DNA of 64,000 bases from a virus: IMG/VR virus record IMGVR_UViG_3300031963_000068, positions 1 through 64,000 of that record; one strand, written 5' to 3'. The position numbers and the translations under genes were made by a program. The stretch's first letter is position 1. Every line of letters starts with the position of its first letter. Below the pieces are notes generated by a model that saw only the letters and a program-made list of their open reading frames with translations, was not told where the DNA came from and searched no databases. This document shows positions 38,569 through 59,825 of this stretch, piece by piece.

Positions 38569-39279
38569 TTAGCATACCCAAATAAAGTGGTCAGATTTCT
38601 CGGATTCAAAAGCCCAATCCTCACCTAAGCAATCTGCGATAATCTCTTTTAACTTAGCGACAGATAATATTTCTTCTAACTTATCGTTAAATTTATCCTC
38701 CGGCACAATATTTTTTAAATTAATTTTGATATTAGGTAAAATTTCTATCTCCTTATCAGAAAATTCACCATATAAAAAAGACAAAATATTAGTTTTAATA
38801 AGGTCTACCTCCTCCTTTGAATAGATTACAACATTCCAGTCGTCATTTTCCCAATCGCTTATTTTAAAAGTGTGTTTATCCGAATCAACCACTTCTATAT
38901 CACCTAAATTCAAATCGAAATAATCCGCTAAAATTTTTTCTTGTGACAAAGTAGATTTTTCAACTCCTTTATATAGACACTCTCTTAAAGAACTCATTTT
39001 GAAATCAACCGATTCAAAATAGTTGAAAGATTCAAAAGTCACAACACCATCTGATTCCATAGAAACCCTGTCATTAATAATATCATTAAGGACTACATTT
39101 GCACCAGACACGTTTTCTAAGTTATTTCTTTTTAAAAAACGATTAAATCTATCAGAACCTGGCCTTAAATAACTTTTTAAATTCTTTGGTCTGATTTTCC
39201 ACTTATCAATATAATCATCAACCAACAAATTAATTTGTTGGTAGTATCTATTAGCATCTTCTCTATTATTAATTGACAT
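38569..39279 (-). CDS. Hypothetical acidic protein
   Basis: 236 residues, acidic, alternating alpha/beta. No recognised domain; residues ~100-108 read VTFESFNYFES, reminiscent of the short Phe-rich motif at the N-termini of neighbouring proteins, but internal here. The start overlaps the end of the upstream zinc-ribbon gene by 11 nt, so the two are translated together. Confidence 0.55.
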   Translation of the reverse strand: MSINNREDANRYYQQINLLVDDYIDKWKIRPKNLKSYLRPGSDRFNRFLKRNNLENVSGANVVLNDIINDRVSMESDGVVTFESFNYFESVDFKMSSLRECLYKGVEKSTLSQEKILADYFDLNLGDIEVVDSDKHTFKISDWENDDWNVVIYSKEEVDLIKTNILSFLYGEFSDKEIEILPNIKINLKNIVPEDKFNDKLEEILSVAKLKEIIADCLGEDWAFESEKSDHFIWVC

Positions 39280-39577
39280 TTTTTTTATTTAAATTATATA
39301 GGTTTATAAAAGTAGATTCTTCTCTTTCTCTATCTTGTCTTAAATCTTCCTTCTCATCATCATCTAATCTTTCACCAACTGCAGAATAATATTCATCTTC
39401 GGATAATTCTTCAATTTCTTCAGAATCACAAAATTTACAAATACTTTCATCTGTGTTAAAAGATTTAAACAGTGCATTACAACCATCACAATGATAATAA
39501 TTGTTTAAAAAATTTTTCGATGTTGACGGTAAAGTCTGACTAAAATCAAAAGTTTCAAAAGTTTTTACATACTTCAT
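39269..39577 (-). CDS. Small zinc-ribbon protein with capsid-targeting-like N-terminus
   Basis: 102 residues from ATG 39577. This start rather than one eight codons upstream is chosen because a TATATATA box ends 5 nt before it and it exposes MKYVKTFETFDFSQ, which matches the recurrent N-terminal motif of this region. A zinc ribbon follows: YHCDGC, then ICKFC, each CxxC, ~15 residues apart. The C-terminal half is very acidic. Function unknown. Confidence 0.6.
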   Translation of the reverse strand: MKYVKTFETFDFSQTLPSTSKNFLNNYYHCDGCNALFKSFNTDESICKFCDSEEIEELSEDEYYSAVGERLDDDEKEDLRQDREREESTFINLYNLNKKNVN

Positions 39578-39582
39578 ATTAG

Positions 39583-39590
39583 TATATATA
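39583..39590 (-). promoter_or_regulatory. TATATATA box, 5 nt upstream of ATG 39577
   Basis: TATATATA then CTAAT then ATG, supporting the shorter start of the zinc-ribbon gene. Confidence 0.4.
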
Positions 39591-39616
39591 AAATTTTTCA
39601 TTTATAAAATTACTTA

Positions 39617-39626
39617 TTAATATATA
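39617..39626 (+). promoter_or_regulatory. TTAATATATA box, 4 nt upstream of ATG 39631
   Basis: TTAATATATA then GTAT then ATG. Confidence 0.5.
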
Positions 39627-39630
39627 GTAT

Positions 39631-40533
39631 ATGAATTTATCACAAACAAGAACTTATTACAATACAAAGCCTGTAGAATTTGTAGTGAAAGAACATTATA
39701 ACCTGATTGAAGATAATGAGTATATCCCAAGATTTTCATTAAAAAATGTAAAAGATATAGCAAACATTCCTATTAATGAACCAGTAAAGTATTCAGACGC
39801 GTTGATGATAAAATGCATCAAATATGGAATGATAATGTTGATAAACTATAAAGGTGAAAAAGACCAACACTTTGCCGGACACGAAAGAGTGGTATATCCT
39901 ATGGTTTTAGGAAGGTCTTCAAAAGGTAAAACATTACTAAGGGGTTGGCATTTGAACGGTTGGTCGGTTTCTCAGAAAAGACATATTAACAAAATCTGGA
40001 GATTGTTCAGAACAGATAGAATATTATCTATGACTTTTACCGGTTCTTTTTATAGACTTCCACCAGCTGGTTATAATATGAATGATAAAGGAATGAGAGG
40101 CGGTATTATAACTAAAGCAGATTTCAATGAAATTAGAAGAAATCAACAAAATCTTGTCAATCAAAACAAAATTCAAAATAGAGAAGAAGTTGAGATGACA
40201 ACCGATGATAGAAAATTTGCTACGATTAGAGTAAAGCAAACTGACACTCAAATAGATTTAATGAATCCTAATGAAAATGCTTACATAAATAACAACAAAG
40301 ATGTAGCAGGACTAAGATTATCTTTTTTGAAAAGTATTTATGGTAATAAATACGTAGCAATTTTAGGAGCGCTTGGCCAACCAGGAAACACGGTAAAAAT
40401 TTTGACAGATAAAGGAACACAATTGGGTGTTTACAAAGTATTAGACTCTATAACTGGACAAGTGTTAAAAAGTATCAAAAATGTAAAAGGTAATTCAGTT
40501 TACGACCTATATTTATTTGATAAAAAAATGTAA
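39631..40533 (+). CDS. WYL-like domain protein
   Basis: 300 residues. Residues ~55-150 resemble a WYL domain, a small ligand-sensing SH3-like fold: KYGMIMLINYKG, then ERVVYPMVLGRSSKGK, LRGWHLNG and the basic IWRLFRTDRILSM, matching the usual beta-barrel with R-x-Phe-x3-RI. No helix-turn-helix is seen upstream of it, unlike bacterial WYL regulators. The C-terminal ~80 residues are strand-rich (KYVAILGALGQPG) and unrecognised. The role could be regulatory or structural. Confidence 0.5.
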   Translation: MNLSQTRTYYNTKPVEFVVKEHYNLIEDNEYIPRFSLKNVKDIANIPINEPVKYSDALMIKCIKYGMIMLINYKGEKDQHFAGHERVVYPMVLGRSSKGKTLLRGWHLNGWSVSQKRHINKIWRLFRTDRILSMTFTGSFYRLPPAGYNMNDKGMRGGIITKADFNEIRRNQQNLVNQNKIQNREEVEMTTDDRKFATIRVKQTDTQIDLMNPNENAYINNNKDVAGLRLSFLKSIYGNKYVAILGALGQPGNTVKILTDKGTQLGVYKVLDSITGQVLKSIKNVKGNSVYDLYLFDKKM

Positions 40534-40589
40534 GTTAATAAAAAATTAATATAGGAGTTTTTATAATTATAATTTTTCTAAATATATTA

Positions 40590-40599
40590 TTAATATATA
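40590..40599 (+). promoter_or_regulatory. TTAATATATA box, 4 nt upstream of ATG 40604
   Basis: TTAATATATA then AGTT then ATG of the polyphosphate kinase gene. Confidence 0.5.
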
Positions 40600-40603
40600 A
40601 GTT

Positions 40604-41758
40604 ATGTTAAAGAAATTTTCAAGTTTTTTAAGAGAAGAGCTATATATCGAAGATATGGATAAAAACTCAGTAAATACTCTGAAAGAAAACATACTTTTCA
40701 GACTGAATGAATATAGAACTTTTATTCTCTCAAATATAATCTACAATTTTGAAACAAATAAAGTTGAATATAAAAATTTTGACCATATAGATATCAAAAT
40801 TATTATGAGAGAACTAACAAATGAGTTTACACAAGAAGTTGTTGAGGAGTTGAATATAGAATCGTTTTTAAGAAAATTAAACCAAATTCTTGAATTAAAG
40901 AAAAGAAACACAAAAAGAAAAATAAGAGAAGCTTTTGATGATTATTACAAATCTATTGAAGTTAGAATCGACCAATTACATCAAATGGGTAAAACAGAAG
41001 ACCACTTTGATGAATTTGAAGGAGAAGGTTCTATATTAGGCAGAAGACAATATGAATCTGAAAAGTATCAATTACAAGTAGAACTACTTAAACTTCAAGA
41101 ATGGGTAAAAACAAATGGAAAAAAAGTTGCAATAGTTTTTGAAGGAAGAGATGCCGCAGGTAAAGGTTCCACTATAAAAAGATTCATAGAATACTTAGAC
41201 CCTAAAGGATTCAAAGTAGTTGCTTTAGGCGTTCCTACTGAGCAAGAAAAAAACAATTGGTTTCAAAGATATGAAAATCACTTACCAAATACAGGGGAAA
41301 TAGTTTTCTTTGATAGAAGTTGGTATAATAGAGCAGTAGTTGAACCAGCAATGGGATATTGTACAGAAGAACAATATCAAGATTTTATGGATAAAGTAGT
41401 TGATTGGGAAGAAAAGCAAATAAGAAATGGACTAATACTTATTAAATTTTGGTTTTCAATTACTCAAGACAAACAAATTAAAAGATTTGAATTGAGACAA
41501 AAATCACCATTGAAATATTGGAAGTTTTCACCAAATGATGCTAAAGTCTTAGATAAATGGGATGTTATTGGTAATTTTAAAAGACAAATGTTCCAACAAA
41601 CATCTTCTAGACTATCACCTTGGGTTATAATTAATTCAAATGATAAAAAAATAGGTAGATTGAATGCTATAAGATATGTATTATCTCAAATCAATTATGA
41701 AAATAAAAACAACGAATTATGTAAATATTATCCAGAAGTTGTAAATATTCTGATATAA
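40604..41758 (+). CDS. ppk2: Polyphosphate kinase 2 (PPK2) with N-terminal extension
   Basis: 384 residues. PPK2 enzymes use polyphosphate to phosphorylate nucleotides (AMP/ADP/GDP) or the reverse. The catalytic core lies at ~140-384: Walker A G181-R-D-A-A-G-K-G-S189, the Walker B/lid F236-D-R-S-W-Y-N-R-A, then GYCTEEQYQDF and the basic PLKYWKFSPND, all conserved in the family. The first ~115 residues are not part of a standard PPK2 and begin MLKKFSSFLREELYIED, a capsid-targeting-like sequence with L-R-E. The core is full length with no missing catalytic residue. Could replenish NTPs from host polyphosphate, or act on delivery into the host. Confidence 0.88.
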   Translation: MLKKFSSFLREELYIEDMDKNSVNTLKENILFRLNEYRTFILSNIIYNFETNKVEYKNFDHIDIKIIMRELTNEFTQEVVEELNIESFLRKLNQILELKKRNTKRKIREAFDDYYKSIEVRIDQLHQMGKTEDHFDEFEGEGSILGRRQYESEKYQLQVELLKLQEWVKTNGKKVAIVFEGRDAAGKGSTIKRFIEYLDPKGFKVVALGVPTEQEKNNWFQRYENHLPNTGEIVFFDRSWYNRAVVEPAMGYCTEEQYQDFMDKVVDWEEKQIRNGLILIKFWFSITQDKQIKRFELRQKSPLKYWKFSPNDAKVLDKWDVIGNFKRQMFQQTSSRLSPWVIINSNDKKIGRLNAIRYVLSQINYENKNNELCKYYPEVVNILI

Positions 41759-41788
41759 AAAAATTTAATATAAAAAAGAAAAAATATT

Positions 41789-42553
41789 ATGAATTCAATA
41801 AAAAAATTCGAAAACTATATGTCAAGAGAAGAAATGTGTAATATGCTATGTAATATTGGACATGAAATGAGCGATTTAGAAAATTGCTCAACACAAGAAC
41901 TTGAACAAATGTGTAAAAACGCTGAAAATTCAAATTCATATAATTCCATTACACAGGAAAAAAAGAACGAAAAATGGATAAAAGACGCCATTAAAAAACC
42001 AGGTTCTTTAAGAAAATCTATGGGTAAAAAAGAAGGTGAAAAAATATCTAAAACTGAAATTGACTCCGAACTTCAAGCACTTAGAGGAAAAGATAAAGAT
42101 AAATCTAAAAAAGGAGTTCAAGGTTTATCTAAAAATGATTTAGCAAAATATAGAAAATTAAATTTAGCAAAAACACTTAAAGGATTGAAAGAAAACCAAG
42201 GAACTCAAAACTATATGTTTTTTGGAAACCTTAAAACAATCAAAAGATTGGTAGATAAGATGTTAGAAATGGATGAGGCAGAAGTTGACTCTATGCTTAC
42301 AAACGGGCACAACTGGGCATTAGACCACATCGCAACATCTAAAGATGATGTAGAAGAAGTATTTAACTTTTTAGCTGGACACGATGAACCAGAATCAAAT
42401 CACGAAGATGAATTGATAGGTGGTCCAGGTGCTAAATATCCAACACATATTCACAAAGATGAACCATCACATGAAGAAACAGAAGGAAGTTTAGCTAATA
42501 AAGATTTAGAAGATGAAATGAAAAATTTGAAAAGTTTTGGAAATTTCAAATAA
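41789..42553 (+). CDS. Basic protein with capsid-targeting-like N-terminus
   Basis: 254 residues. N-terminus MNSIKKFENYMSREEM fits the shared motif. Residues ~60-125 are strongly basic with KKPGSLRKSMGKKEGEKI, a pattern I associate with small viral DNA-associated proteins, then helices and an acidic, His-rich tail (YPTHIHKDEPSHEETEG) ending LKSFGNFK. It follows the polyphosphate kinase gene by 30 nt and is closed by a terminator. No enzymatic motif; a nucleic-acid-binding internal head protein is plausible. Confidence 0.55.
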   Translation: MNSIKKFENYMSREEMCNMLCNIGHEMSDLENCSTQELEQMCKNAENSNSYNSITQEKKNEKWIKDAIKKPGSLRKSMGKKEGEKISKTEIDSELQALRGKDKDKSKKGVQGLSKNDLAKYRKLNLAKTLKGLKENQGTQNYMFFGNLKTIKRLVDKMLEMDEAEVDSMLTNGHNWALDHIATSKDDVEEVFNFLAGHDEPESNHEDELIGGPGAKYPTHIHKDEPSHEETEGSLANKDLEDEMKNLKSFGNFK

Positions 42554-42556
42554 AAA

Positions 42557-42581
42557 AAACCCAGTCGTTTGACTGGGTTTT
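42557..42581. terminator. Bidirectional terminator between convergent genes
   Basis: Perfect 10-bp stem AAACCCAGTC/GACTGGGTTT with a GTTT loop, flanked by A and T runs, between the stops at 42553 (+) and 42587 (-). Confidence 0.85.
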
Positions 42582-42586
42582 CTATT

Positions 42587-43321: not shown

Positions 43322-43425
43322 AATAATAGTTCTTTTTTTTGTATATATCAAAACAAAAACATAAACTTTTACTAAAATTTAAATGAGAATCATAGTATTC
43401 TTAATAAATAAAGTAGTTTCAACAA

Positions 43426-43848
43426 ATGAACAAAATTGACAAATTTTTAGAATTTTTTATAGAAAACTTAGACGACAAAAGAATATCTGTTTCAAAAAAA
43501 ATGAAATACGGTCATAGATATTACTATATAAATTTCATGGTAGATGAAGATCCAACAATTCAAAATAATCAACACAGCATCTATCAATATAGAGATAATA
43601 TGGAAATAATATTTGATAATAGAAATGGTTGTATCGAGATTTACGGAGGCGATGAAAATAATACATTAATAGTAGAGGATAAAACACTACTTGAAAAATG
43701 GTCAACTATTTTAGAAAAGATTGTAAATACAGACTTAGAAAACAGAGTAATTAATATTTTTGAAAAGACTCTAAATGAGTGCTATAATAAAAATCTCTAC
43801 AGAGAATTACAGATGAAAAAATTATTTAAAGAAGATGAATCCCTATAA
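43426..43848 (+). CDS. Hypothetical protein with capsid-targeting-like N-terminus
   Basis: 140 residues. N-terminus MNKIDKFLEFFIENLDD fits the shared [Phe/Tyr]-x2-Phe motif. Middle is strand-rich (YGHRYYYINFMVDED, NMEIIFDNRNGCIEIYGG), C-terminal helices are Lys/Glu-rich. Overlaps the UvsY-like gene by 14 nt. No family recognised. Confidence 0.55.
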   Translation: MNKIDKFLEFFIENLDDKRISVSKKMKYGHRYYYINFMVDEDPTIQNNQHSIYQYRDNMEIIFDNRNGCIEIYGGDENNTLIVEDKTLLEKWSTILEKIVNTDLENRVINIFEKTLNECYNKNLYRELQMKKLFKEDESL

Positions 43849-44329
43849 TCAAGACGAAATTGATAGAATTAATAAATCAAAAGACACTAATGACAAATTA
43901 GAGGAATTTTTTAACGATAAAAGAGCAGAGTGGAATAAAAATGTTGAACCATTATTCAAAATAATTAGAGTTGATTTGACTAATCCTTCATCCGCTAAAG
44001 ATATAATGGAAGCACAATCTATGGCTCTTTCGTATAGACAAGCAATCAGTGAACAAATAAATTTCTTTTTAAATAAACGAAGCAAAGAAACAACCAAAAT
44101 TAAGAAACTTAGACAGGACAAGTTTATTTTTTACGCAACAGGATTTGGAGTTAAAACAAACTTAGGAGAAAAAGGAATTTTAATTGATGGACATCTAGCT
44201 GAAAATGACAGAAGTCTTGAACTTATCGAATCTTATATTGAATTCTTAAGAGATACTACTAAAAATTTAGAAAGTTTGAGTTATTCAATTAAGAATATGA
44301 TAGAATTAATGAATTATTTGGGTCGTTAA
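43835..44329 (+). CDS. uvsY: UvsY-like recombination mediator
   Basis: 164 residues, slightly longer than T4 UvsY (137). UvsY loads UvsX recombinase on gp32-coated ssDNA. The match is to the family pattern of helices: ALSYRQAISEQINFFLNKRSKE, a Lys-rich segment, FYATGFGV, then a D-R-S-L-ELIESYIEFL helix and a final helix SIKNMIELMNYLG, as in UvsY's C-terminal FAIKHIQDM. No catalytic motif is expected. The 3' end overlaps the convergent gene by 4 nt. Consistent with gp47-like and UvsW genes elsewhere in the window. Confidence 0.6.
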   Translation: MNPYNQDEIDRINKSKDTNDKLEEFFNDKRAEWNKNVEPLFKIIRVDLTNPSSAKDIMEAQSMALSYRQAISEQINFFLNKRSKETTKIKKLRQDKFIFYATGFGVKTNLGEKGILIDGHLAENDRSLELIESYIEFLRDTTKNLESLSYSIKNMIELMNYLGR

Positions 44330-45444
44330 TCAACCTTTTTATTCCATTTGGTTTCGATACCCATATTTTTAAGAGTTTGATGACCAGATGAACAATCCAT
44401 ACATAATTGTTTATCACCATCATAGTTAGTTATTATAATATCACCTTCACAATCTTCACACCTCTCTCTATCACCATAAACACTATGTAAGTAATAGCAC
44501 TTTTTGTCTGAAAGATTTGATAGACTATCCTTATCTTTACTAAGATAACACATTGTATCTATATAAGGATAGTTTCTAAAATCACCGTTAAGGTTTAACT
44601 TAACTTCACCAGCAACTTCTGTTCCTTTATAAATAAAAATAACACTATCACTATCATGTGAAGCGGTTTTCTTTTTATAAAACCACCCTTCAGTATCAGC
44701 AAATTGTTTAAACCTATTTATATCCGAATCACGGTTAGTATATACTCTGTCCATAAAATATCTAGACTCACAAGGTGATTTCTTTACTTTCCAAACTAAA
44801 GCTCTTCCGTGAATCTTATCATCTCCATCCACATAAATAAGTAACTTAACTTTAGTCGGATTCTCAGTGTATATCTTAAATATTTTACTACTCTCTTCTC
44901 TCATACAAGATGAACCCAAAGTTCCTGATTTACTATGATATTTACTCTCATCATAGTATTTTGAAATATCTTCACCGTAGACCAATTTAAACTGAATTGT
45001 TGGAATCTCAGTAGAGGCTATCCAAGCATTTACAAAAGACTCTCTATCAGAATCAGTAACTGAAATATTTCTTAAAGAGCAAATATAATTAACGATTTTT
45101 CCAATTTTTACTTCAGATCTACCAGGCATTGTGAAAGGGAGTTCCGGATTATCATATACATCATCCATTACTGTTTTAACCTTTGATTGATTAACAAATC
45201 CAACCATGTCTTCTTTATCAACTAAATCAAAATAATTTTGTTTTATTTTACTATCAGCAAACCATTGTTGACTCTCAATAACATCTAAAATATGCTCAGC
45301 AATTTGACCAACCATTCCGGGTTGTTTCACCAATGACTTCATCTTCATAATAAAATCAGTAGTTGCATAAATGTGACCTTCAAGCAATGAAAAGATTTCA
45401 AACTTTAATCTTTCTAATATAAAACCATCGTATTTTGTTATCAT
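44326..45444 (-). CDS. Conserved phage-type protein with SCMR motif and C-terminal zinc finger
   Basis: 372 residues. Middle region reads YHSKSGTLGSSCMREES, then IYTENPTKVKLLIYVDGDD, IHGRALVWKV, FMDRVYTNRDSD and ADTEGWFYKK; I have a recollection of this block in other phages but no function. C-terminal CEDC ... CMDC is a zinc-binding pair. N-terminus MITKYDGFILERLKFE resembles the capsid-targeting motif with I-L-E. A TTAATATATA box ends 7 nt before the ATG and is shared back-to-back with the 45472 gene. Confidence 0.6.
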   Translation of the reverse strand: MITKYDGFILERLKFEIFSLLEGHIYATTDFIMKMKSLVKQPGMVGQIAEHILDVIESQQWFADSKIKQNYFDLVDKEDMVGFVNQSKVKTVMDDVYDNPELPFTMPGRSEVKIGKIVNYICSLRNISVTDSDRESFVNAWIASTEIPTIQFKLVYGEDISKYYDESKYHSKSGTLGSSCMREESSKIFKIYTENPTKVKLLIYVDGDDKIHGRALVWKVKKSPCESRYFMDRVYTNRDSDINRFKQFADTEGWFYKKKTASHDSDSVIFIYKGTEVAGEVKLNLNGDFRNYPYIDTMCYLSKDKDSLSNLSDKKCYYLHSVYGDRERCEDCEGDIIITNYDGDKQLCMDCSSGHQTLKNMGIETKWNKKVD

Positions 45445-45471: not shown

Positions 45472-45825
45472 ATGAAATTTAAATTAACTGAAGACTGGAT
45501 TCATGAGTACTCATTTTTAGATAGAAAAATGACAAAAAAAATTTATGACAAAGGTCATGTTTTTGAACCGATAGATGGTAAATATGAAATTATTCATCAT
45601 ACCGGTGAGATATTTAATTTAGATGAAGAACAGATGAAATCTTTTGATATCTTAGAAGAAGTAAAGGAAATATCAGATGATTTTGAAATTATAATTGAAG
45701 AGATTCCAGAAGATGATGATATCTTAGTTAGAAACTGGAGGATTCAATTAGATGTAAAAACAACTCGTAAAAAACTAAAAGAAGTTCAGAAGATTATAGA
45801 AGAATATGTAAAACCTATTCTTTAA
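45472..45825 (+). CDS. Small acidic hypothetical protein
   Basis: 117 residues, Glu/Asp-rich. N-terminal MKFKLTEDWIHEYSFLDRKM followed by a short SH3-like run (YDKGHVFEPIDGKYEIIHHTG). C-terminal helix KTTRKKLKEVQKIIEEYV. No family recognised. Stops 11 nt inside the convergent gene's end. Confidence 0.55.
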   Translation: MKFKLTEDWIHEYSFLDRKMTKKIYDKGHVFEPIDGKYEIIHHTGEIFNLDEEQMKSFDILEEVKEISDDFEIIIEEIPEDDDILVRNWRIQLDVKTTRKKLKEVQKIIEEYVKPIL

Positions 45826-46126
45826 TTTTATCCATAGCTTCTTCCAATTCTTGAATCCTCTTGAATATTTTTTCTTTAAAAACATGAGGATCCACTGTTA
45901 GCTTAACAAGTTTTGAACGATACCAGTCACCAGAAGGTATTGTATTCATTCTAAAAATAGCATCTTTGTATTGATAAAAATCATCATATAGATGAAGTTC
46001 TTTTATCTTTTTATTATTTCCATAATAATCCATATTAAAACTACACTCACTTGTTTTGTATGCCTCTTCAAAATCATTTATGATTTCTTGTTCTTTTGAT
46101 TCATTAAACTTTTGTAAGTGTTTCAC
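45815..46126 (-). CDS. Small hypothetical protein with capsid-targeting-like N-terminus
   Basis: 103 residues. N-terminus MKHLQKFNESKEQE fits the recurrent motif (F-N-E). Remainder charged with YDDFYQYKDAIFRMN. ATG overlaps the upstream stop by one base at 46126 (TAATG-type coupling). Confidence 0.55.
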   Translation of the reverse strand: MKHLQKFNESKEQEIINDFEEAYKTSECSFNMDYYGNNKKIKELHLYDDFYQYKDAIFRMNTIPSGDWYRSKLVKLTVDPHVFKEKIFKRIQELEEAMDKIKE

Positions 46127-46824
46127 TATTTCTTTTTCTTTTTTCTTGCCTTAGCCGCCTTAGCTTTAGTCCATAAAGCAGCATCTGCTTTTCTAGCACC
46201 ACCAGCACCAGTGATAAATGAATTTACTCTACCCATTCCCCATTGATGTTGAGCAACACCTGGTCTATGACCAGCGTTCCAAGCTTGCATACCTTTAGCA
46301 AAAACTTTTCTTAAAATACCTACTGGAATTCCCGAAGCCTTTGATTTCTTTTTAAGAGAAGCAGTAACTCCAGATTTTTTTGATTCATCAAGTTCTTCTA
46401 ATTCATCAGAAGATACTCCATGTTTATTTATAGTATCAATGATTTGTTTAACAACATAAATTTCCAAATCTAACTCAATTGAAATTTGTTCATCAGTAAG
46501 ACCCATATCTAAAAGTTCTCTTACATCTTCCATATCAGCATGTGTAAAATCTTCAAATGTATAAGATTCTTCATAGTAATCACCTTCTTCCTCTTCTCTT
46601 GCATGATAAGGCCCTCCTATCCAATTTTCACCACCGGTTGTTTCTCTATCTAACTCATCAATCCAATCTTCGGTTTCTAATGAGTGAAATAATTCTTCTA
46701 ATTCATCATCTGTCATTGCTTCTAACTCTTCTCTTTCAAAAGTCGAAGTAGTAGTTAATGTTTCAATCATCTCTTCTCTATTAGATGGTTCTCTAAAACT
46801 TTCGTATGTTTTTAAGTATTTCAT
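46126..46824 (-). CDS. Acidic-then-basic protein with capsid-targeting-like N-terminus
   Basis: 232 residues. N-terminus MKYLKTYESFREPSNREEM, then ~130 acidic residues with an HTH-like helix pair (LLDMGLTDEQISIELDLEIY). The last ~75 residues are very basic: KKKSKASGIPVGILRKVF, AWNAGHRPGVAQHQWGMGRV, then AKAARK-type Lys/Ala tail ending in five lysines. The W-x3-HRPG-x5-QWG-x-RVN block recurs in viral and phage proteins (a DUF5824-like pattern) and probably binds DNA. Middle gene of a three-gene leftward run. Confidence 0.6.
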   Translation of the reverse strand: MKYLKTYESFREPSNREEMIETLTTTSTFEREELEAMTDDELEELFHSLETEDWIDELDRETTGGENWIGGPYHAREEEEGDYYEESYTFEDFTHADMEDVRELLDMGLTDEQISIELDLEIYVVKQIIDTINKHGVSSDELEELDESKKSGVTASLKKKSKASGIPVGILRKVFAKGMQAWNAGHRPGVAQHQWGMGRVNSFITGAGGARKADAALWTKAKAAKARKKKKK

Positions 46825-46838: not shown

Positions 46839-47747
46839 TTATTTATCACCAAACATTCTTTGATAAGCTTTTGTAGCAGCTGATTTTTTTGTTTTAATTC
46901 TCTTACCACTTCTTTTATCGTAGTCTGCTTCCCAATCTTTTTTATACTCCTTTTTTCCTCTAAAAGTGTCAATTTCTTTTTTCATAGCACCCTTTTTACG
47001 AGTTAAATATTTAGCAGGTATATGTTTTCCTTTATATTTTTCACCACGAGTTTTTGCTTTTTCTAACAACTCAAAACCAACAATTTTAGAGAAATGCTCT
47101 AAAATTTTATAAATTGCGCTCATCAAATTAGTGGGTTCAATATCATAATCATATTTTAAATCATCACCAAATAATATAATCTTTTCTATTATAGACTCAT
47201 AACCTGTAAATTGAGAAAATAAAAATAACTCTATCAAAAATTCTACTAATTTTGGGTGATATTCTGATAATAATCTTTTCAATGTATTTGATTTTGTAAC
47301 TAAATCTTCTTCAAAAAACTTTGAAAAGAATAGTTGACATTTTTTGATACTTGATAAAACCGGTTCTAAATCTTGTTCTGATATTGATGAGTCCCATTGA
47401 CCTAAATAATAACTTTCGTTTATACCCAAGACCATATAAATATCTTTCTCTATAATATCTAAACCCTCGTCTATTGATTCAACATCCTTTGTGAAATCTG
47501 TCTGATTATCAACATATTTTGCAACGAATAGAGAGTCAATATCAAACTCATACTTTATAGATAAATCATTGAACGTAAAATTAATTACCAATTCATGGTC
47601 TTCTTTATTTTGCCACTCATACATTATATTTTGAGTATTGACTGATACATTATCAATAAGGTCTTTTAATTCGGACATTTTTGCATCAATTAAATTATCA
47701 GAATTTTCTATAAATTCTCTTATAAACTCGTTAAACTTTTTTATCAT
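46839..47747 (-). CDS. Protein with capsid-targeting-like N-terminus and basic tail
   Basis: 302 residues from ATG 47747; a TTG one codon upstream is an alternative. N-terminus MIKKFNEFIREFIENS is nearly a copy of the T4 targeting peptide plan, with I-R-E. Residues 20-235 are helical and acidic. The last ~65 residues are basic: KHIPAKYLTRKKGAMKKEI, then GKKEYKKDW and RIKTKKSAATKAYQRMF. The layout (targeting end, acidic core, basic tail) matches the two neighbouring genes. A TTAATATATA box ends 4 nt before the ATG. Confidence 0.6.
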   Translation of the reverse strand: MIKKFNEFIREFIENSDNLIDAKMSELKDLIDNVSVNTQNIMYEWQNKEDHELVINFTFNDLSIKYEFDIDSLFVAKYVDNQTDFTKDVESIDEGLDIIEKDIYMVLGINESYYLGQWDSSISEQDLEPVLSSIKKCQLFFSKFFEEDLVTKSNTLKRLLSEYHPKLVEFLIELFLFSQFTGYESIIEKIILFGDDLKYDYDIEPTNLMSAIYKILEHFSKIVGFELLEKAKTRGEKYKGKHIPAKYLTRKKGAMKKEIDTFRGKKEYKKDWEADYDKRSGKRIKTKKSAATKAYQRMFGDK

Positions 47748-49542: not shown

Positions 49543-50970
49543 ATGACTAAAGAAGAAAAGATTAAAAAAATAGACCTTCTAAAAAAGAAAGCCTCTGACT
49601 TAAAAAAGGAAGTAGACTATTATAACGCATTACAACTTGCCCTAAAATTGGTATTGAACGGTAGTTATGGCGCATTTGCTACTTCTTATTTCATACTCTA
49701 TAACAATCACGTAGCAGGAACAATTACAGCACAAGGTCGAGACTTGACCAGAACAATGGATAAAGTCAACGAAGAATATTGGTACAAACAATGGCATAAT
49801 GACCATGAACTACATTTTAAACTAGGAATAAAAAATGTAACACCCCTAACTAAGGATGAACATGTATCAATTTATGCAGATACCGACTCTTTATTTGTTA
49901 CTTTCAAACCAGCTATTGACCATTGTGATTGGAAAAATATAATTTTTGACAATTTAGATGCCATAGAGAAAAAATTTATTATTTATACACCAGAAGAGGA
50001 TTTTATTTGCAAAAATAAAAATTGCATTGGTGTTACAAATAAAATTGAGGAGTTACAAAATTTTCTTAAAGAAGATTACGAACTAATTATCTTTGATGGT
50101 CATTTCATAAAAGACAGAAAGATAAACTCTATGATAGATGAAGGTGTCTTCACATCAGAAATAAGATGGAATTGGTCAAATGAAACTGATTTTATACAAG
50201 GATTAGACCACTTCAGATACGCTGGATATTTTAAAAAGTGTTTAGAAGAATATGCTGAGTCTTTTGGTGTCGAAAATAAAGAAGATTTTGAACTCGAAAG
50301 AATTTCAGAGTCAATAATAAACATAGCAAAAAAGAAATATATACAACACATTCTTTTTGAGGACGGAATTCCCTATGAAAGACTAAACTATATTTATCCA
50401 AAGGGAGTAGAACTAGTAAGATCCTCTACACCTGCCTTTGCAAGAGAAAAAATTGTAAACATAGTAAAGTATCTTTTCTCTCATCCAGACACTTTTAATA
50501 TAAAAGATTTATTAAAATTGGTGAAACAACTGAGAAAAGAATTTGAATTAGCGGATATTGATGATATAGCAATGCAATCTTCTTGCTCTAATTATGACAT
50601 AAAAGTATTAAATGATAAAACACTTCCGTTACAATTTGTATCAGGTGCTCACTTTGCAGTAAAATCAGCAGCTCACTATAACTATCTTTTATCTAAAGAT
50701 AAAAATATGCAGCAAAAGTATGAATTTATTAAATCAGGAACTAAAATTAAATACTATGTCTGTAAAGACAAATCTATCACCGATATGTTTGCTTATATTA
50801 GAGGTTCTTTTCCAATGGAGTTTGCGCCACAGATAGACTTCGATGAGCAATTTGAAAAATCAATTCTTTCACCAATTAATTCAATTATTGAACCATTAGG
50901 AATGCCTGAAATTACTAAAAGACTTTCAGTAGTTATGGATATTTTCTCAGGATTCGGAAAAGGCTTTTAA
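49543..50970 (+). CDS. 43: Family B DNA polymerase, C-terminal (palm/thumb) half, gp43-type
   Basis: 475 residues. Contains polymerase motif B (K35-LVLNG-S41-Y-G) and motif C (YA-D113-T-D115-SLFV), followed by a thumb region like T4 gp43 (RSSTPAFAREKIVNIVKYLF, later FVSGAHFAVKSAAHYNYLL). The exonuclease domain and motif A (D-x2-SLYPS) are absent and no upstream in-frame sequence supplies them; the preceding gene is IF3. So this is one part of a split polymerase, as known for some T4 relatives. Residues ~140-200 hold an insertion with CKNKNC. The C-terminal FSGFGKGF may be a clamp-binding tail. Confidence 0.85.
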   Translation: MTKEEKIKKIDLLKKKASDLKKEVDYYNALQLALKLVLNGSYGAFATSYFILYNNHVAGTITAQGRDLTRTMDKVNEEYWYKQWHNDHELHFKLGIKNVTPLTKDEHVSIYADTDSLFVTFKPAIDHCDWKNIIFDNLDAIEKKFIIYTPEEDFICKNKNCIGVTNKIEELQNFLKEDYELIIFDGHFIKDRKINSMIDEGVFTSEIRWNWSNETDFIQGLDHFRYAGYFKKCLEEYAESFGVENKEDFELERISESIINIAKKKYIQHILFEDGIPYERLNYIYPKGVELVRSSTPAFAREKIVNIVKYLFSHPDTFNIKDLLKLVKQLRKEFELADIDDIAMQSSCSNYDIKVLNDKTLPLQFVSGAHFAVKSAAHYNYLLSKDKNMQQKYEFIKSGTKIKYYVCKDKSITDMFAYIRGSFPMEFAPQIDFDEQFEKSILSPINSIIEPLGMPEITKRLSVVMDIFSGFGKGF

Positions 50971-51665
50971 AATACTTTATGATAAACTAAATTAGATTTA
51001 GGAAAACTCAAGTATTCCGGAGTTACTTGATGATTATATGTTCTATATATGTAACATTCATTATCGTTTATAGCCACAAAAAAGTTAGTGACAAGTGGTT
51101 TTAAATGACCTCTACATCTTGCAAAATCTCTAAATTTACCAGTAGTTAAATTATCAAGAGGTTTTACTTGAGCAGATTTAACACCACCATTTATTTCCCA
51201 AAAGATATCGTAACCTTCCTCGTCTCTTTTTCTACTAGGACTAAATGGTTCTATTAAAATACCTTTTGAGTCGTAGTATTCAATTAAAACATCTTTTGCT
51301 TTTTGCTCTAATCCTCTACCTCTATTGTAAGAGTTTGTCAGAATGTTTATAACATTTTTGAAATATTGACCATTCGGATGATATAACTCAAATTCATTAT
51401 TTGAAATCCAAGTAGTTAAATCATCTATTGTTTTAGTTGGTGATATATTATTGACATAATCTATTAATAATCTGTTATTTTTTGACAATCTAAGAATTTC
51501 AGCCACTATTTTCATACCATGAGCCTTTACCCAATACCTATTTATATAACCCCAAATATTTCTACAAGATTTTATAAGAGCTGTTCCTATCTTATCTTTA
51601 TCGTCCTCTGTTAGAGCATTTGTTAGAGACTCATTAAAATTGAGCCAATTCTTAATATTTTCCAT
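50967..51665 (-). CDS. Possible PD-(D/E)XK nuclease with capsid-targeting-like N-terminus
   Basis: 232 residues. Residues 114-170 resemble a restriction-endonuclease fold core: RGRGLE120QKAKDVLIEYY, then G-Y-D153-I-F-W-E and A-Q166-V-K168, i.e. E...D...QxK. N-terminus MENIKNWLNFNES fits the shared motif. The first 100 residues are helical. If real, this would be a packaged DNA nuclease; nickase and pseudo-enzyme alternatives remain. It overlaps the polymerase stop by 4 nt on the opposite strand; a TTTAATATATA box ends 6 nt before the ATG. Confidence 0.5.
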   Translation of the reverse strand: MENIKNWLNFNESLTNALTEDDKDKIGTALIKSCRNIWGYINRYWVKAHGMKIVAEILRLSKNNRLLIDYVNNISPTKTIDDLTTWISNNEFELYHPNGQYFKNVINILTNSYNRGRGLEQKAKDVLIEYYDSKGILIEPFSPSRKRDEEGYDIFWEINGGVKSAQVKPLDNLTTGKFRDFARCRGHLKPLVTNFFVAINDNECYIYRTYNHQVTPEYLSFPKSNLVYHKVF

Positions 51666-52320: not shown

Positions 52321-52836
52321 ATGAAAAGCACATCACATACTATGAAACATTTGATGAGATATGAGGGTTACACATCTAAAGAAAGAGTAGATGATATTTT
52401 AGATAAGATTTCTAAGTATGGTATAAAATCGCTTACTCCTATGGAAAAGGAATTTTTAGACTCACATAAATCAGGAGAAGAAGAAAAATATCATGACAAA
52501 TTAGCTAAATCTGAAACAGAAACAACATTCGAGGATGATAATGGCTATTTCAAATTTGAATTTGATTCATGTGAAGATTATGGTGATGAGACTCACTATT
52601 TAGGAACTCTTTATGTTCCTGATTTGAAATGGCCAAATGGCAAAAAAATTGAAGGCAGACTAGAAGGAAGATTAATTGTTTTTTCAAATGGGCAAGTATC
52701 TCCAGATTTTTACTCCATACAAAAAGATCCTAAATCAGGTGATCACTATGATGTATTTGAGTTTTGTAACGGATTAGAATATGAACTTGACTCATTTTTA
52801 GACTATGTAGCCTCTGAATTAGAACAAAAAGATTAA
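52321..52836 (+). CDS. Protein with Bacteroidota-type LDKISKxGxxSLT segment
   Basis: 171 residues. Residues ~22-50 read ERVDDILDKISKYGIKSLTP and then EKEFLDSHKSG, resembling the DUF6576-type C-terminal tail of Bacteroidota rhomboid proteases, which supports a host in that phylum. The rest is acidic beta structure with ends DSFLDYVASELEQKD. A second ATG at codon 8 would expose MKHLMRYEGYTSKE, fitting the targeting-like motif, but the TATATA box spacing favours the first ATG. Confidence 0.55.
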   Translation: MKSTSHTMKHLMRYEGYTSKERVDDILDKISKYGIKSLTPMEKEFLDSHKSGEEEKYHDKLAKSETETTFEDDNGYFKFEFDSCEDYGDETHYLGTLYVPDLKWPNGKKIEGRLEGRLIVFSNGQVSPDFYSIQKDPKSGDHYDVFEFCNGLEYELDSFLDYVASELEQKD

Positions 52837-52875: not shown

Positions 52876-53367
52876 ATGATTAAAAGATATAATCAATTTG
52901 TAAAAGGTAAAGTAAATGAAGACTATGAAATGGAAGCAGAATTAGAGGCTCCTGTAAAAAATTTACCTTCTTTAGGTGGAAGACCACCTGTTAATCCACC
53001 GGTTGAAATGGAATCTGAATTCGAAGGTGAGGAAGAGGAAGTAGCAACTGATAAATATGAGTTAGCATTACAGAAATTAGCCGATGCTGCTGGTGTTGAG
53101 TTTACACCTGGTCAAAAATCAGTTGTAATTGATGGAAAAGAAATTACCTATCCTGCTGAAACCGAAAAATATCATATAAAGGGTGTGAAAAAATCATTTA
53201 CGACCGTTGAAGACGTTTTAGCAAATTTAGGAGGTCAATCAAACACTCCAACTGAAAGGTCAGAGGAAGCAAAAGATGAGTTATCCTCTATAAAAGATGA
53301 AGAAGTTTTAGATTCATCAGAACAATTTGAATCAAAAAGTTATAAATTTAAAAGATTCAAAAAATGA
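52876..53367 (+). CDS. Acidic protein with capsid-targeting-like N-terminus and basic C-terminus
   Basis: 163 residues. N-terminus MIKRYNQFVKGKVNED closely matches the shared motif. A Pro-rich linker (GGRPPVNPPVEMESEF) precedes an acidic segment, a small alpha/beta stretch (KSVVIDGKEITYPAE), and a basic end FESKSYKFKRFKK. The TATATATA box is ~24 nt upstream. The stop overlaps the ATG of a lipoprotein gene (ATGA), so the two are coupled. Confidence 0.6.
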   Translation: MIKRYNQFVKGKVNEDYEMEAELEAPVKNLPSLGGRPPVNPPVEMESEFEGEEEEVATDKYELALQKLADAAGVEFTPGQKSVVIDGKEITYPAETEKYHIKGVKKSFTTVEDVLANLGGQSNTPTERSEEAKDELSSIKDEEVLDSSEQFESKSYKFKRFKK

Positions 53368-53864: not shown

Positions 53865-54329
53865 ATGAATATTTTTAAAGTAATTAAATTTTTGATTTCT
53901 TCAAAACATTCTCATTTTTTATCAGTTGATAAAAAAACATATAAAAAATGGAAATGGCTTATAATAGCAGCGGTCAAAATAAACAAAGAATATAAATCAG
54001 TAGAGATTTTTAGAAAAAAGTTCAAAGTATTAGAAGACTTTGTTGTTGTTGGATTGAAATATAATGGTAAAAATGTAAGGAGGAGAACTTCTGGTTTCGC
54101 AAAAGAATTTATAGAACAAAACGATGACGCTAAATGTCTTTATTGTGATAAAATACTTACTTCTGAAAACGCCACGGCCGACCATATAATTCCAATATCA
54201 GAGGGTGGCAATAACTGCCAAGTAAATTTAGTAGTTTGTTGTAAGGATTGTAATGTAGAAAGAGGCAATTTAGATTTCAAATTTTATCTATCAAAGAAGA
54301 ATGTTAAAAAAATTAAACATTTTATTTAA
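53865..54329 (+). CDS. HNH endonuclease
   Basis: 154 residues. HNH core: C91-L-Y-C94, T-A-D106-H107-I-I-P, N121-L-V-V-C-C126-K-D-C129-N-x-E-R-G-N. The two CxxC pairs bind structural zinc; H107 is the catalytic histidine. N-terminal ~85 residues are basic, probably DNA-binding. Free-standing, so it may be a homing endonuclease. No intron is visible next to it, but a split polymerase gene lies 3 kb away. The end overlaps the convergent gene by 8 nt. Confidence 0.85.
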   Translation: MNIFKVIKFLISSKHSHFLSVDKKTYKKWKWLIIAAVKINKEYKSVEIFRKKFKVLEDFVVVGLKYNGKNVRRRTSGFAKEFIEQNDDAKCLYCDKILTSENATADHIIPISEGGNNCQVNLVVCCKDCNVERGNLDFKFYLSKKNVKKIKHFI

Positions 54330-54855
54330 TTCTACCGACTTTCACATCAATTTCTTTTGAAACCTTTTCATTTATAGTAGAAACTCGCTTAGATGATTTT
54401 ACCATGAACTTTTCATGCCATGGTATGAAAACATTACCCTCGGCAATTATTTCAAGTTTGATATCACCAGTCAAATTCTCACTAAGTATATCTAATTTTT
54501 TTATAGGAATATTACATTTTCCATTTTCAATAACTCCATTGAAAACTAAGTTCCAATCTTCTGACTCTACAACCAATCTTGCCTTTGCCTTCTCTGGATT
54601 AGTACCCTCAATAAAAATATCACAACTGAAATTTTCATTAACGTCTCTATAAAGATTGTAATACTCATCATTATCTTCAATGACATTACTCATGTTAGAT
54701 AAATCTTCTTTAGTCAGGCCGAAGTCATTTAATAAATAATCAACTCGGTCTTTAGTAAGTAAACTCTGTTCAAAATATTCGTTTGAATCATCTAAATTCA
54801 GTTCATTTGAATTTTTATTAACAAAATCATCAAAGCTAAATACATCTTTCTGCAT
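54322..54855 (-). CDS. Conserved-looking hypothetical protein with C-terminal beta domain
   Basis: 177 residues. Residues ~80-165 form a beta-sandwich-like region (CDIFIEGTNPEKAKARLVV, FNGVIENGKCNIPIKKL, VFIPWHEKFMVKSSKR) of a type I associate with T4-like virions. The N-terminus MQKDVFSFDDFVNKNSNE weakly resembles the shared targeting motif. A TATATA box ends 4 nt before the ATG. Function unknown. Confidence 0.55.
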   Translation of the reverse strand: MQKDVFSFDDFVNKNSNELNLDDSNEYFEQSLLTKDRVDYLLNDFGLTKEDLSNMSNVIEDNDEYYNLYRDVNENFSCDIFIEGTNPEKAKARLVVESEDWNLVFNGVIENGKCNIPIKKLDILSENLTGDIKLEIIAEGNVFIPWHEKFMVKSSKRVSTINEKVSKEIDVKVGRIK

Positions 54856-54859
54856 ATTG

Positions 54860-54865: not shown

Positions 54866-54870
54866 TAAAT

Positions 54871-55281: not shown

Positions 55282-55324
55282 AATCTTTTATTTTTATATA
55301 TTAAAATCAGGTTGACTAAATTTA

Positions 55325-55330
55325 TATATA
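55325..55330 (+). promoter_or_regulatory. TATATA box, 4 nt upstream of ATG 55335
   Basis: TTTATATATA then AGAT then ATG. Confidence 0.4.
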
Positions 55331-55334
55331 AGAT

Positions 55335-56009: not shown

Positions 56010-56025
56010 AAATAATAAATAGATT

Positions 56026-57252: not shown

Positions 57253-58449
57253 TTAAAGATATTTCAGACCATCAAATTTTTTGTTGTAATCAGTCTCCTC
57301 GGTATTTTTTTTCTTTTTTCTAAACTTTGGAATCCATTTGATATCTAAAATATCTTTTGAAAAGAATTTTTCAAGTTCTAATTTTTTATACGGATTATCG
57401 ACTAAAGTAGATAATTTATTTATGTCTTTTACCTTTGAGATTCTATGAAGTAATGAAAATGGATCTTGAGAGTTTTTTTTATCTACTATATCTTCAAATA
57501 ATTTTTTCCATAGAAAAACAGGATATCCTTCTTTTATCTTTTCTTCAGATTTTTTATAACCAGCTTCATCGTTATCAAAAAAATATTGAATATCTAAATC
57601 ATTATTTTCTAAAAATCTATAATCAGTATTAACTCCAACAAGGCCTATTGAATTTGGAAAAAATAATGAATCTAAATAACCTTCAAAGACGGTAATAGTT
57701 TTAGAAAAATCTACGTTTAAAATATTAAAGTAATAAGAAAGTTTATTGTAAACTACTAATTGATTTATATCCATTTCTACATCATTATCTTTTCCGATGT
57801 TTATCCACTCTAAAAGGTTTTCATAATTATAAATCTTAAACATTCTACGTTTACCCTCTTTCAAATTTCTTATTTGAAGACCTAAAACTTTAGTATCTCT
57901 TCTATTTAACATCACAATTATCCACTCAGCCTCATCTTCATTCTTCCAATATTTAGCTTGATAAATATTTTTATGAAATTCAACAGGAATTCCTCGACCT
58001 AGAAGATATTTGTAAACACCACCGTTTACTTGTATTGGTTTAAAATCCGATATCGGAGTTAAATCTTGTGAAAAAACTCTTTCTAATTCTGATAAGTCTA
58101 TAAGATCATCAAATTTAGCATCAACAAAATCACCCTCATAATCAGAATACGTCATAACACTATTCAAGTGTTCAATCATTTCTAATTTTTTATCAGGGTC
58201 TATTTGTTCGTTAAAATCCTTACATATTCTATCAATTGTAGTTTTTTTATCACAATTAAAACAAATATAAATAAGTCGATTTAAGTAAAGATTTCCTCTT
58301 TTTGCATGTTTGTTTTTATGACTATCACCACAATAAGGACAAGCAACATTGAATCTATCATTATAGTCCATAATTTTTCTTTTATGACTATCTGAAAATT
58401 CTTTGTTTAAAATCTTTTGTAAAATGTCTTTTATATAAATCTTATCCAT
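57253..58449 (-). CDS. 61: DNA primase (DnaG/gp61-type)
   Basis: 398 residues from ATG 58449; a TTG six codons upstream is less likely. Synthesises RNA primers for lagging-strand replication. Zinc-binding domain: C37-P-Y-C40 ... C63-F-N-C66 with GDSHKNK between. TOPRIM region: TITVF-E256-GYLDS and YFF-D292-N-D294-EAG, the metal-binding acids. The C-terminus is basic (FRKKKKN). Longer than T4 gp61 (342). Helicase partner gp41 is not seen in the window. Confidence 0.87.
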   Translation of the reverse strand: MDKIYIKDILQKILNKEFSDSHKRKIMDYNDRFNVACPYCGDSHKNKHAKRGNLYLNRLIYICFNCDKKTTIDRICKDFNEQIDPDKKLEMIEHLNSVMTYSDYEGDFVDAKFDDLIDLSELERVFSQDLTPISDFKPIQVNGGVYKYLLGRGIPVEFHKNIYQAKYWKNEDEAEWIIVMLNRRDTKVLGLQIRNLKEGKRRMFKIYNYENLLEWINIGKDNDVEMDINQLVVYNKLSYYFNILNVDFSKTITVFEGYLDSLFFPNSIGLVGVNTDYRFLENNDLDIQYFFDNDEAGYKKSEEKIKEGYPVFLWKKLFEDIVDKKNSQDPFSLLHRISKVKDINKLSTLVDNPYKKLELEKFFSKDILDIKWIPKFRKKKKNTEETDYNKKFDGLKYL

Positions 58450-58510
58450 TACATGATATATTGTCAAAACTATTAGGAGTTTTAATATAAAATAACTATA
58501 TTTGTTTATT

Positions 58511-58747
58511 ATGACACTAAAAGAACTATACGAATCAAACGTTGATGTAAAAGAATCTCAAATCCCAGAAGAATGGAAAGAAAGTTTCAATAAATTTATC
58601 TTTGGTTCTACCTGTCTTGCTGAGACAAATGAAGATGGTACTATAAAAGAATTTATTTACTATGCTTGTGATTTTAGATCATGGTATTTCCAAAATAAAG
58701 AAGCGATTGAAAGAGATATCAAAATAGACCAAATAACTAACAAATAA
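58511..58747 (+). CDS. Small hypothetical protein
   Basis: 78 residues from ATG 58511 (MTLKELYESNVDVKES). Contains CLAETNEDGTIKEFIYYACD followed by FRSWYFQNKE, a compact alpha/beta protein. The N-terminus faintly resembles the shared targeting motif. Followed by a terminator. No function recognised. Confidence 0.55.
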   Translation: MTLKELYESNVDVKESQIPEEWKESFNKFIFGSTCLAETNEDGTIKEFIYYACDFRSWYFQNKEAIERDIKIDQITNK

Positions 58748-58748
58748 A

Positions 58749-58775
58749 AAAGTCCTCTTATTTAGAGGACTTTCT
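58749..58775. terminator. Bidirectional terminator
   Basis: Stem AAGTCCTCT/AGAGGACTT with TATTT loop, A and T flanks. It overlaps the stop codon of the leftward HAD gene at 58758. Confidence 0.8.
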
Positions 58776-59825
58776 TTTTTTATCTTTTAAAATTTCTTTT
58801 GAATTTTTAGCTAAATATTGTACTTGTTTTCTGAATTGATTATAAAAATCATCCTGCCTATTTAAACCACCACTTGGATTTAATCTATTAGTCATATTTC
58901 CAAATTGAGTACAAGTAAGTACTGAACTTTCTAGTCCAGGTGTTTGATGTGATGTCTCAGTTAAACCCATCATCGTTACTTTTTTAGTAATATTTTCAGG
59001 GTCTTTAGTACCCTTAACAACAAACTTTATTATGTTCGGGAATTCTTCATGATTCAATTTATCAGCTAACTCCTCAATATGCGCAACATTACCTAAATCA
59101 TCATCAGAAAAACCTATCATGGCCTTCATGCCTAATTGACCAGCAAATCTATCAACTTTTGACTTAAACAAAAGTAAGGCTTCTTCTTTAGCCTTTTCAG
59201 GATTATCTGGTGTACCACCTCTTGATGGTGCCGAAACTCCGATAAAATCACAATTGTCTAAATACAATTTTATCAATTCATTCTGTGATGGAACCCCTTT
59301 AAGAATTCTTTCTCTGTCAGTAGAAATATCATAGAAGTAGGAAAATTTAAGTAAGTTATTATACATACTAAAAAGTTGTTCTTCCGAAAGAACATTATCA
59401 ATAATCCATTCTGTGCCTATTCTCATAGTTTCGGGCTCATGACCACGAGCTGTAATAATCGCAAAAAGAGAACCGTTTGATAAACACTCTATAAAATCAT
59501 CCCAAGCAGGAGCAAATCTATTAGCAGAAATTGCTTTTTTTACATCCTCTAAAAAGACTTGACCACCCAAAGGTCCTGTATCTCTGAAGTTAGCAAATGC
59601 TTCATCAGCACTTTGATTCAAATATCGGTAATTTTCTTTATCATTTCTTACCTCAGCAAACTCTGCAGTTGATACATCTGTTGGTATCCATTGTTCTCCA
59701 ACTTTTTTCTCAAGTCTAATCATAGTTGGCATTCTTAGAATATTATCATCCCAATCAAATGCGTAATATAATAAAATATTAGAATCGCTATTTTCCGATA
59801 TAAACTGATTAAATCTTGATATCAT
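58758..59825 (-). CDS. HAD-superfamily hydrolase-like protein with capsid-targeting-like N-terminus
   Basis: 355 residues from ATG 59825. HAD motif I is AF-D24-W-D26-D27-N28, motif II is AIIT125-A-R-G, and a late GFS-D241-D-D243 could be motif IV. Probably a phosphatase or phosphotransferase; the substrate is unknown. N-terminus MISRFNQFISENSDSN is one of the best matches to the T4 targeting sequence, with I-S-E. An upstream-extended reading is an artefact of the neighbouring acidic gene read out of frame. It starts 4 nt after that gene, so the two form an operon. Confidence 0.72.
   Translation of the reverse strand: MISRFNQFISENSDSNILLYYAFDWDDNILRMPTMIRLEKKVGEQWIPTDVSTAEFAEVRNDKENYRYLNQSADEAFANFRDTGPLGGQVFLEDVKKAISANRFAPAWDDFIECLSNGSLFAIITARGHEPETMRIGTEWIIDNVLSEEQLFSMYNNLLKFSYFYDISTDRERILKGVPSQNELIKLYLDNCDFIGVSAPSRGGTPDNPEKAKEEALLLFKSKVDRFAGQLGMKAMIGFSDDDLGNVAHIEELADKLNHEEFPNIIKFVVKGTKDPENITKKVTMMGLTETSHQTPGLESSVLTCTQFGNMTNRLNPSGGLNRQDDFYNQFRKQVQYLAKNSKEILKDKKRKSSK

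Follow-up and report, generated by a model that had tools for sequence, protein, structure and literature searches.

A short N-terminal peptide shared by otherwise unrelated phage proteins is described here for a window of 64,000 nucleotides, bases 1-64000 of the 84,230-base viral record IMGVR_UViG_3300031963_000068. This N-terminus, hereafter the tag, is very probably a capsid-targeting leader of the type carried by the internal proteins of phage T4, in a massively expanded form. In line with the T4 signal, the leader is short and stands on unrelated bodies, its targeting and processing residues are equivalent, an [IL]-x-E site lies at its end, and a gp21-type protease is encoded by five complete relatives. 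The original prediction had listed twelve such N-termini and read them as marks of proteins that are packaged and ejected with the DNA. All twelve are present in the sequence where it placed them, the gene at 8188 alone falling outside the range that it gave for the set.

The window's 84-kb record is a piece of a Mahaphage-type huge phage. Its tail sheath shares 66% identity with that of LR745206 (W01, 634,780 bases), 59% with that of LR756502 (W02, 642,428 bases), and 40-44% with those of LR756504 (W03, 636 kb), LR756501 (W04, 735 kb) and LR756500 (W05, 462 kb), and UvsW is 81% identical to that of W01. In Al-Shayeb et al. 2020, the genomes of greatest size (634, 636, 642 and 735 kb) are assigned to the Mahaphage clade, with predicted Bacteroidetes hosts (PMC7162821). 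Given that the window has few genes, the complete relatives were chosen for the main statistical test. Genes were called mechanically, as the longest non-overlapping open reading frames (ORFs) of at least 50 aa and without a trained gene finder, and Pfam matches were assigned to members by N-termini and lengths read by eye, except for proteins that were scanned singly.

The tag is strongly enriched at the starts of proteins. With internal methionines as control, the core pattern M-x(0-3)-[KR]-x-[FYW]-x-x-[FY] matches 9 of 75 first starts in the 84-kb record versus none of 324 internal methionines (p=1.9e-7), 69/940 versus 14/2917 in W01 (p=5e-30), and 83/972 versus 13/3090 in W02 (p=3e-39). 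When wider patterns that add the short form (M..K.FNE) are used, 92 of the 940 first starts of W01 are tagged versus 19/2809 internal methionines (p=1e-38) and 114 of the 972 of W02 versus 16/2991 (p=3e-54), which sets the background in these two genomes at 0.5-0.7%. The wider patterns also find 67/930 first starts in W03 (8e-23) and 83/1013 in W04 (7e-31), while in W05 the form [FYW]xx[FYW][ILVM]xE is carried by 22 of 673 (1e-10). A motif search over all N-termini, which had been proposed together with the original list, was run by expectation-maximization (EM) on W01, and most of eight unrelated seeds reached K-Y-L-K-K-F-E-E-F. The tagged fraction of 0.56 estimated by this search was inflated and was discarded. 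A loose profile (score of at least 7) selected about 190 proteins in W01, with signal peptides, a DNA polymerase fragment, M28 peptidases and RlaP among its false positives; for this reason the counts from the regular expressions (92 and 114 first starts) are preferred, and the DNA_pol_B and RlaP Pfam matches among the profile positives, judged to be false, are not accepted as tagged.

The tag draws on residues with AT-rich codons (K, Y, L, I, F, N and E), and its actual codons are AT-rich too, as would be expected if AT-rich gene starts produced the motif as an artefact of translation initiation or composition. The probability of this explanation is nonetheless negligible. Shuffling residues 2-20 within each protein leaves a mean of 8 matches (maximum 17-19), which indicates that the order of the residues, and not the AT-rich composition, carries the signal, and the internal methionine controls remain at about 0.5%. 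The tag is written with the same codon preferences as the protein bodies, and no two of the 152 DNA strings encoding it are alike, so that it is conserved at the protein level, with selection acting on the peptide. Untagged orthologues also exist.

Three forms of the tag recur, namely M-K-[YH]-[LI]-K-x-[YF]-x-x-F-E^S, M-I-K-K-[FYW]-x-x-F-I-x-E^S and M-K-[YH]-L-K-x-[FY]-N-E^S (the caret marks the proposed cut), with leaders such as MKYLKKFNES, MIKKYNQFIKES and MKYLKTYKIFES. The second form is that of T4, M-K-T-Y-Q-E-F-I-A-E. Mutagenesis of the T4 IPIII leader MKTYQEFIAE has assigned residues Y4 and F7 to targeting and I8 and E10 to processing (PMC9026906), and the conserved positions of the tag (an aromatic residue, an aromatic at +3, Ile/Leu at +4 and Glu at +6) coincide with these four. 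A search of T4 with the second form, which is the strictest, matches only ipII, ipIII and gp61.1. The T4 gene for gp61.1 (18966-19130, complement) starts with MKTFKEFIKED, an intact leader of the targeting type, and gp61.1 is possibly an unrecognised T4 internal protein.

The proposed cleavage site is enriched after the tag. An [ILVF]-x-E site is found after 70-80% of tagged starts versus 25-30% elsewhere. The stricter [ILVFM]-x-E[SNADG] follows the core in 43 of 76 tagged N-termini of W01 versus 15 of 198 internal copies of the core (p=3e-17), and in 44/96 versus 24/174 in W02 (p=1e-8). Ser occupies the P1' position in about a third (32%) of tagged proteins versus 7-9% elsewhere. In the DHH protein, the sequences of G000 (...PINE|EVGLRN) and W01 (MISKYNQFINE|EVGLRN) match from the proposed cut onwards, and their leaders differ.

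Some tagged genes are paralogous. The largest tagged family, that of the window protein encoded at 44326..45444, has 46 members in the five complete genomes, many of them tagged, with several copies in each of the four largest. One gene start that was duplicated and spread with no common function would account for such cases, but as an explanation for the tag as a whole it is very improbable. As had been argued from the window, the bodies show no relationship to one another (mean column identity 4%), and shared descent explains them poorly. Orthologues switch between forms of the tag with its grammar retained, each phage has its own dialect with the same key positions, and Glu11, nearly invariant in the 44326 family, has not been lost in diverged orthologues.

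The tag also goes with a promoter element. The late box AATATATA, found before the terminase, portal and protease genes, precedes 39 of the 48 tagged genes that lead a transcription unit in W01 versus 95 of the 356 other leaders (27%; p=3e-13), and 47/58 versus 93/357 (26%; p=1.5e-15) in W02. The excess is also seen in W03, W04 and W05, and among the 26 replication genes in leading position the box is found before only 3. Within the window, a AATATATA or TATATATA box stands before at least nine tagged genes. Judged from this box, the tagged genes would be expressed late, alongside the head genes. In W01 and W02 the box lies about 30-35 or 11-15 bases from the start codon; many tagged genes have the shorter spacing, and their mRNAs may therefore be nearly leaderless. 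A second class of promoter in these two genomes, the Bacteroidetes-type box TAnnTTTG, precedes other genes.

The original prediction had called for the gene of a gp21-type protease to be located. A Peptidase_S77 domain is encoded by all five complete relatives and by both Tenacibaculum phages. When the protease profile of the clade is compared with solved structures, the one strong match is T4 gp21 (PDB 5jbl, E=1.5e-6), and gp21 is likewise the sole Foldseek match of the AlphaFold model (E=2e-7, TM 0.7 across the gp21 chain). The ORF runs on beyond the protease into a long helix (model residues 236-450, where model confidence is low). In W01-W04 and three IMG/VR genomes this scaffold part holds 11-14 tandem units such as N-I-A-Y-S-E-Y-I-A-E-N-L-D-K, and of about 40 other homologues from IMG/VR nearly all have 2-16 units; genes adjoining some of these homologues start with MKTIKTFEQFISEA or MKNFLTFEQFITES. 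The consensus of the repeat, Y-S-E-Y-[IL]-A-E, resembles the second half of the tag. In W01-W04 this ORF contains the most [FYW]xx[FYW][ILVM]xE units of the whole proteome, and [ILVF]xE[SNA] sites are denser in it than in any other ORF of W01 and W02 (21 sites, 3.0/100 aa versus a median of 0.35-0.39). Directly after the protease domain, an Asn-Glu pair, usually [VL]-N-E-S, is invariant across 23 homologues and is likely a self-cleavage site. The major capsid protein of W01 contains EYAEFHSINE^NAY near residue 45, which would correspond to the end of a propeptide like that of gp23. At 460435-460686 (complement), distant from the head genes, W01 also encodes an 83-aa protein of about four scaffold-repeat copies (NYEDYIAESLEKNISYSEYISENLN...), a possible core protein, or else a decoy through which scaffold assembly might be regulated.

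These observations bear on whether the tag is directed to heads at all. An amphipathic helix with basic and aromatic residues might attach to membranes or to some other structure built by the phage, and in one tagged protein AlphaFold predicts, with low confidence, a helix spanning residues 4-18. A localisation signal for some other compartment or membrane is nevertheless improbable, given that it would leave unexplained the Glu-Ser cleavage grammar, the match to the positions mutagenised in T4, the scaffold repeats and the coupling to late promoters.

The distribution of the tag among proteins of recognisable function is selective. In a survey of some 47 T4 homologues in W01 and W02, the tag is absent from the polymerase, primase, helicases, clamp loader, recombinase, topoisomerase, ribonucleotide reductase (RNR) and single-stranded DNA-binding protein, and from terminase, portal and tail proteins. 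The original prediction had named an equally common motif in cytosolic proteins such as polymerase and primase as a result that would refute it, and this is not what is seen. RNA ligase 1, with its KEDG nucleotidyl motif intact, is tagged in both genomes, its leader being an extension of 16-20 residues that is absent from the orthologues of T4, W03 and W04. T4 RnlA mends tRNA cleaved by the host PrrC defence, and for this reason delivery of the ligase with the DNA would make sense. At 448257-449573 (complement), W01 encodes a tagged fusion of a 2H phosphoesterase, which has a weak match to anti-CBASS Acb1, with a DEDD-type exonuclease, a candidate for an injected counter to cyclic-nucleotide defence. 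Further tagged bodies include a DHH protein and a Toprim-like protein, and the tag is gained or lost modularly between orthologues.

Targeting and cleavage signals are in themselves uninformative on ejection. T4 core proteins too carry gp21 sites, and the majority of tagged bodies have no assigned function. The tag could thus lead to the prohead while most of its carriers are structural or core components of the head interior, retained in the virion or leaving it at maturation, with few injected effectors. This has a minor but real chance of being correct. It fits poorly with the known bodies, which are enzymes (PPK2, RNA ligase 1, the 2H phosphoesterase-exonuclease, DHH and Toprim-like proteins), with the variation of tagged sets among relatives, which resembles that of accessory genes, and with T4, where the tagged proteins are injected.

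On the preferred reading of the tag as a capsid-targeting leader, the tagged proteins would be made late in infection together with the head proteins, and the leader, probably an amphipathic helix, would dock on the scaffold inside the prohead. This scaffold would be the C-terminal part of the protease-scaffold fusion, usually with 5-16 tandem Y-S-E-Y-[IL]-A-E repeats. The gp21-type protease would then cut after the Glu of [ILVF]-x-E^[S/N/A], stripping the leader and shredding the scaffold. The mature proteins would stay in the head beside the DNA, to be ejected at the next infection and act at once, several of them plausibly against host defences. A bolder version holds that the largest known phages load more than 100 different accessory proteins per head through a leader that imitates the scaffold repeat, with the fusion serving as a tandem docking array until the cargo-trimming protease destroys it; taken as a whole, we would give this version an even chance.

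Several points weigh against the capsid-targeting reading. The tagged set is far larger than in any studied phage, and some of its members may belong to the core or be packaged weakly; how many are truly packaged and ejected is the most uncertain step. These phages are uncultured, and no virion proteomics of a tagged phage was found in the literature searched. The cultured relative PTm1 has hardly any tags and for this reason offers no proteomic test. In the 84-kb record alone, the late box is no discriminator (4/7 tagged versus 13/30 other genes), probably because most other genes there are late too, and the excess of cleavage sites (10 strict matches) is not significant. The protease is not found in this fragment, where Pfam Peptidase_S77 gave no match; the head genes of this phage appear to lie outside it. 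The full tag profile fails to rank the scaffold, since its repeats lack a counterpart to the [IL]-K half of the tag; the likeness is confined to Y-x-x-[FY]-[IL]-x-E, and resemblance to the second half alone is claimed. Repeats are also few or absent in the distant LR756500 and in PTm1.

In the window, the tagged genes begin with 7544..8188 (-), whose leader is MKYLHKFLQHLNE^S and whose W01 orthologue at 163438 begins with MKHLTQFFDYIKES. The gene at 8895..9659 (-) was missing from the original list; it starts with MKLTKFFEFKRG, has a late box at -13, and its product has a weak nucleotidyltransferase-like Pfam match below the cut-off. The gene at 39269..39577 (-) starts with MKYVKTFETFDF (late box at -13; MQYIKKFEDLDF in W02). 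The kinase that had been guessed among the bodies is confirmed as polyphosphate kinase 2 (PPK2), encoded at 40604..41758 (+) with leader MLKKFSSFLRE^E and a late box at -12 (PPK2 E=7e-80; PDB PPK2 E=2e-82 across residues 146-373), and its orthologues start with MPVYNFHKFINEE in W01 and MINNFIKFINEE in W02; the HAD fold, nuclease and zinc finger guessed for others found no support in Pfam. Immediately 3' of PPK2, 41789..42553 (+) starts with MNSIKKFENYMSRE (MKHLKTFESY and MKYLKTFESYGSE in relatives), and it is followed by 43426..43848 (+) with leader MNKIDKFLEFFIE^N.

The product of 44326..45444 (-), which starts with MITKYDGFILE behind a late box at -15, gave a weak GNAT-like hint with AlphaFold and Foldseek (E=1.6e-3, low TM), and SCM and DRxY motifs are invariant in its paralogous family. 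The gene at 45815..46126 (-) starts with GTG and has the short-form leader KHLQKFNE^S. The gene at 46126..46824 (-) starts with MKYLKTYESFRE and has a DUF5824 match at its C-terminus, and that at 46839..47747 (-) starts with MIKKFNEFIRE and has late boxes at -12 and -35. At 50967..51665 (-) the leader is MENIKNWLNFNE^S (late box at -14) and orthologues vary in leader type. The gene at 52342..52836 (+), also missing from the original list, starts with MKHLMRYEGYTSKE and encodes a DUF6576 protein; 52876..53367 (+) has a leader, MIKRYNQFVKGKVNE^D, that is kept in at least eight relatives. A probable tagged gene at 54322..54855 (-), likewise unlisted, starts with MQKDVFSFDDFVNKNSNE, a weak match, with a late box at -12. 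The last, 58758..59825 (-), starts with MISRFNQFISE^N (MIKKFNQFIKES and MIKKFNHFISES in relatives). Among the listed N-termini, MITKYDGFILER and MNSIKKFENYM have the weaker scores in the tag profile, and the starts at 39577, 47747 and 59825 are ATGs internal to longer mechanical ORFs. Beyond the window, the same record holds two more unlisted tagged starts, at 82592+ (MRWIKLFEEF) and 79307+ (MKIKDYRLFLDLESDEPINEE).

Among the other genes of the window, a Clp protease (PF00574, E=6e-64) at 60272-60928 (+) adjoins the uvsW helicase; the N-terminus of this protease has only a weak likeness to the tag, and the gene is left out of the tagged set. Three consecutive tail-fibre-like proteins at 16074-21743 (-) have long S-G-T-rich repeats close to the N-terminus. 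DNA polymerase B appears to be split in two genes, about 100 kb apart in W01 (130568-131992 and 232803-234344), and 49543-50970 (+) in the window is a homologue of one part.

If the bolder version is true, the virion would bring a ready-made proteome into the cell before phage gene expression, with tRNA repair, phosphoesterases, PPK2 and acetyltransferase-like enzymes. Given that the proteins of huge phages are mostly of unassigned function, it matters that the tag predicts the place and time of action for dozens to more than 100 genes per genome, and the mature N-terminus of each tagged protein. The list of tagged genes can therefore be tested as an inventory of proteins that the largest known phages may inject, candidate anti-defence proteins included, and the repeats offer a physical hypothesis, that the scaffold recruits cargo through mimicry of its own repeats. 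The open-access literature searched describes neither such a tag on dozens to more than 100 proteins per genome in the largest phages nor a fused protease-scaffold with tag-like repeats. The capsid-targeting principle is already known from T4, and it is the scale, the fusion and the occurrence in the largest phages that appear to be new.

Giant phages with a gp21-like protease are already represented by phiKZ and SPN3US, which have many ejected head proteins that are cut after Glu. The propeptides of their ejection (inner body) proteins are mostly about 79-127 residues long and lack one short shared motif (PMC5694885), whereas the leaders described here have about 9-20 residues. The closer likeness is to T4, where IPI, IPII and IPIII share an N-terminal leader of about ten residues on otherwise unrelated proteins, with aromatics at the targeting positions, an [IL]-x-E processing site, a homologous protease and an association with late promoters. 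T4 internal proteins are packaged, trimmed and ejected, and act as inhibitors of GmrSD-type restriction enzymes (PMC9391042, PMC12373910). Unlike T4, which has three internal proteins plus Alt, these genomes have dozens to more than 100 tagged genes, an expansion of roughly ten- to thirty-fold. They also have the leader forms MKYLKxYKxFE^S and MKYLKKFNE^S, not seen in T4, a protease fused to a scaffold with tandem repeats like the leader, and a preference for Ser after the cut. Across the T-even phages, Tequatrovirus has at least ten Ips, of which Ip1-3 inhibit GmrSD (PMC12373910). There, as here, the leader alone is shared and the bodies vary, those of Tequatrovirus being injected anti-defence proteins (PMC12373910), while enzymes (RNA ligase, PPK2 and nucleases) are among the candidate cargo here, which is about tenfold more numerous.

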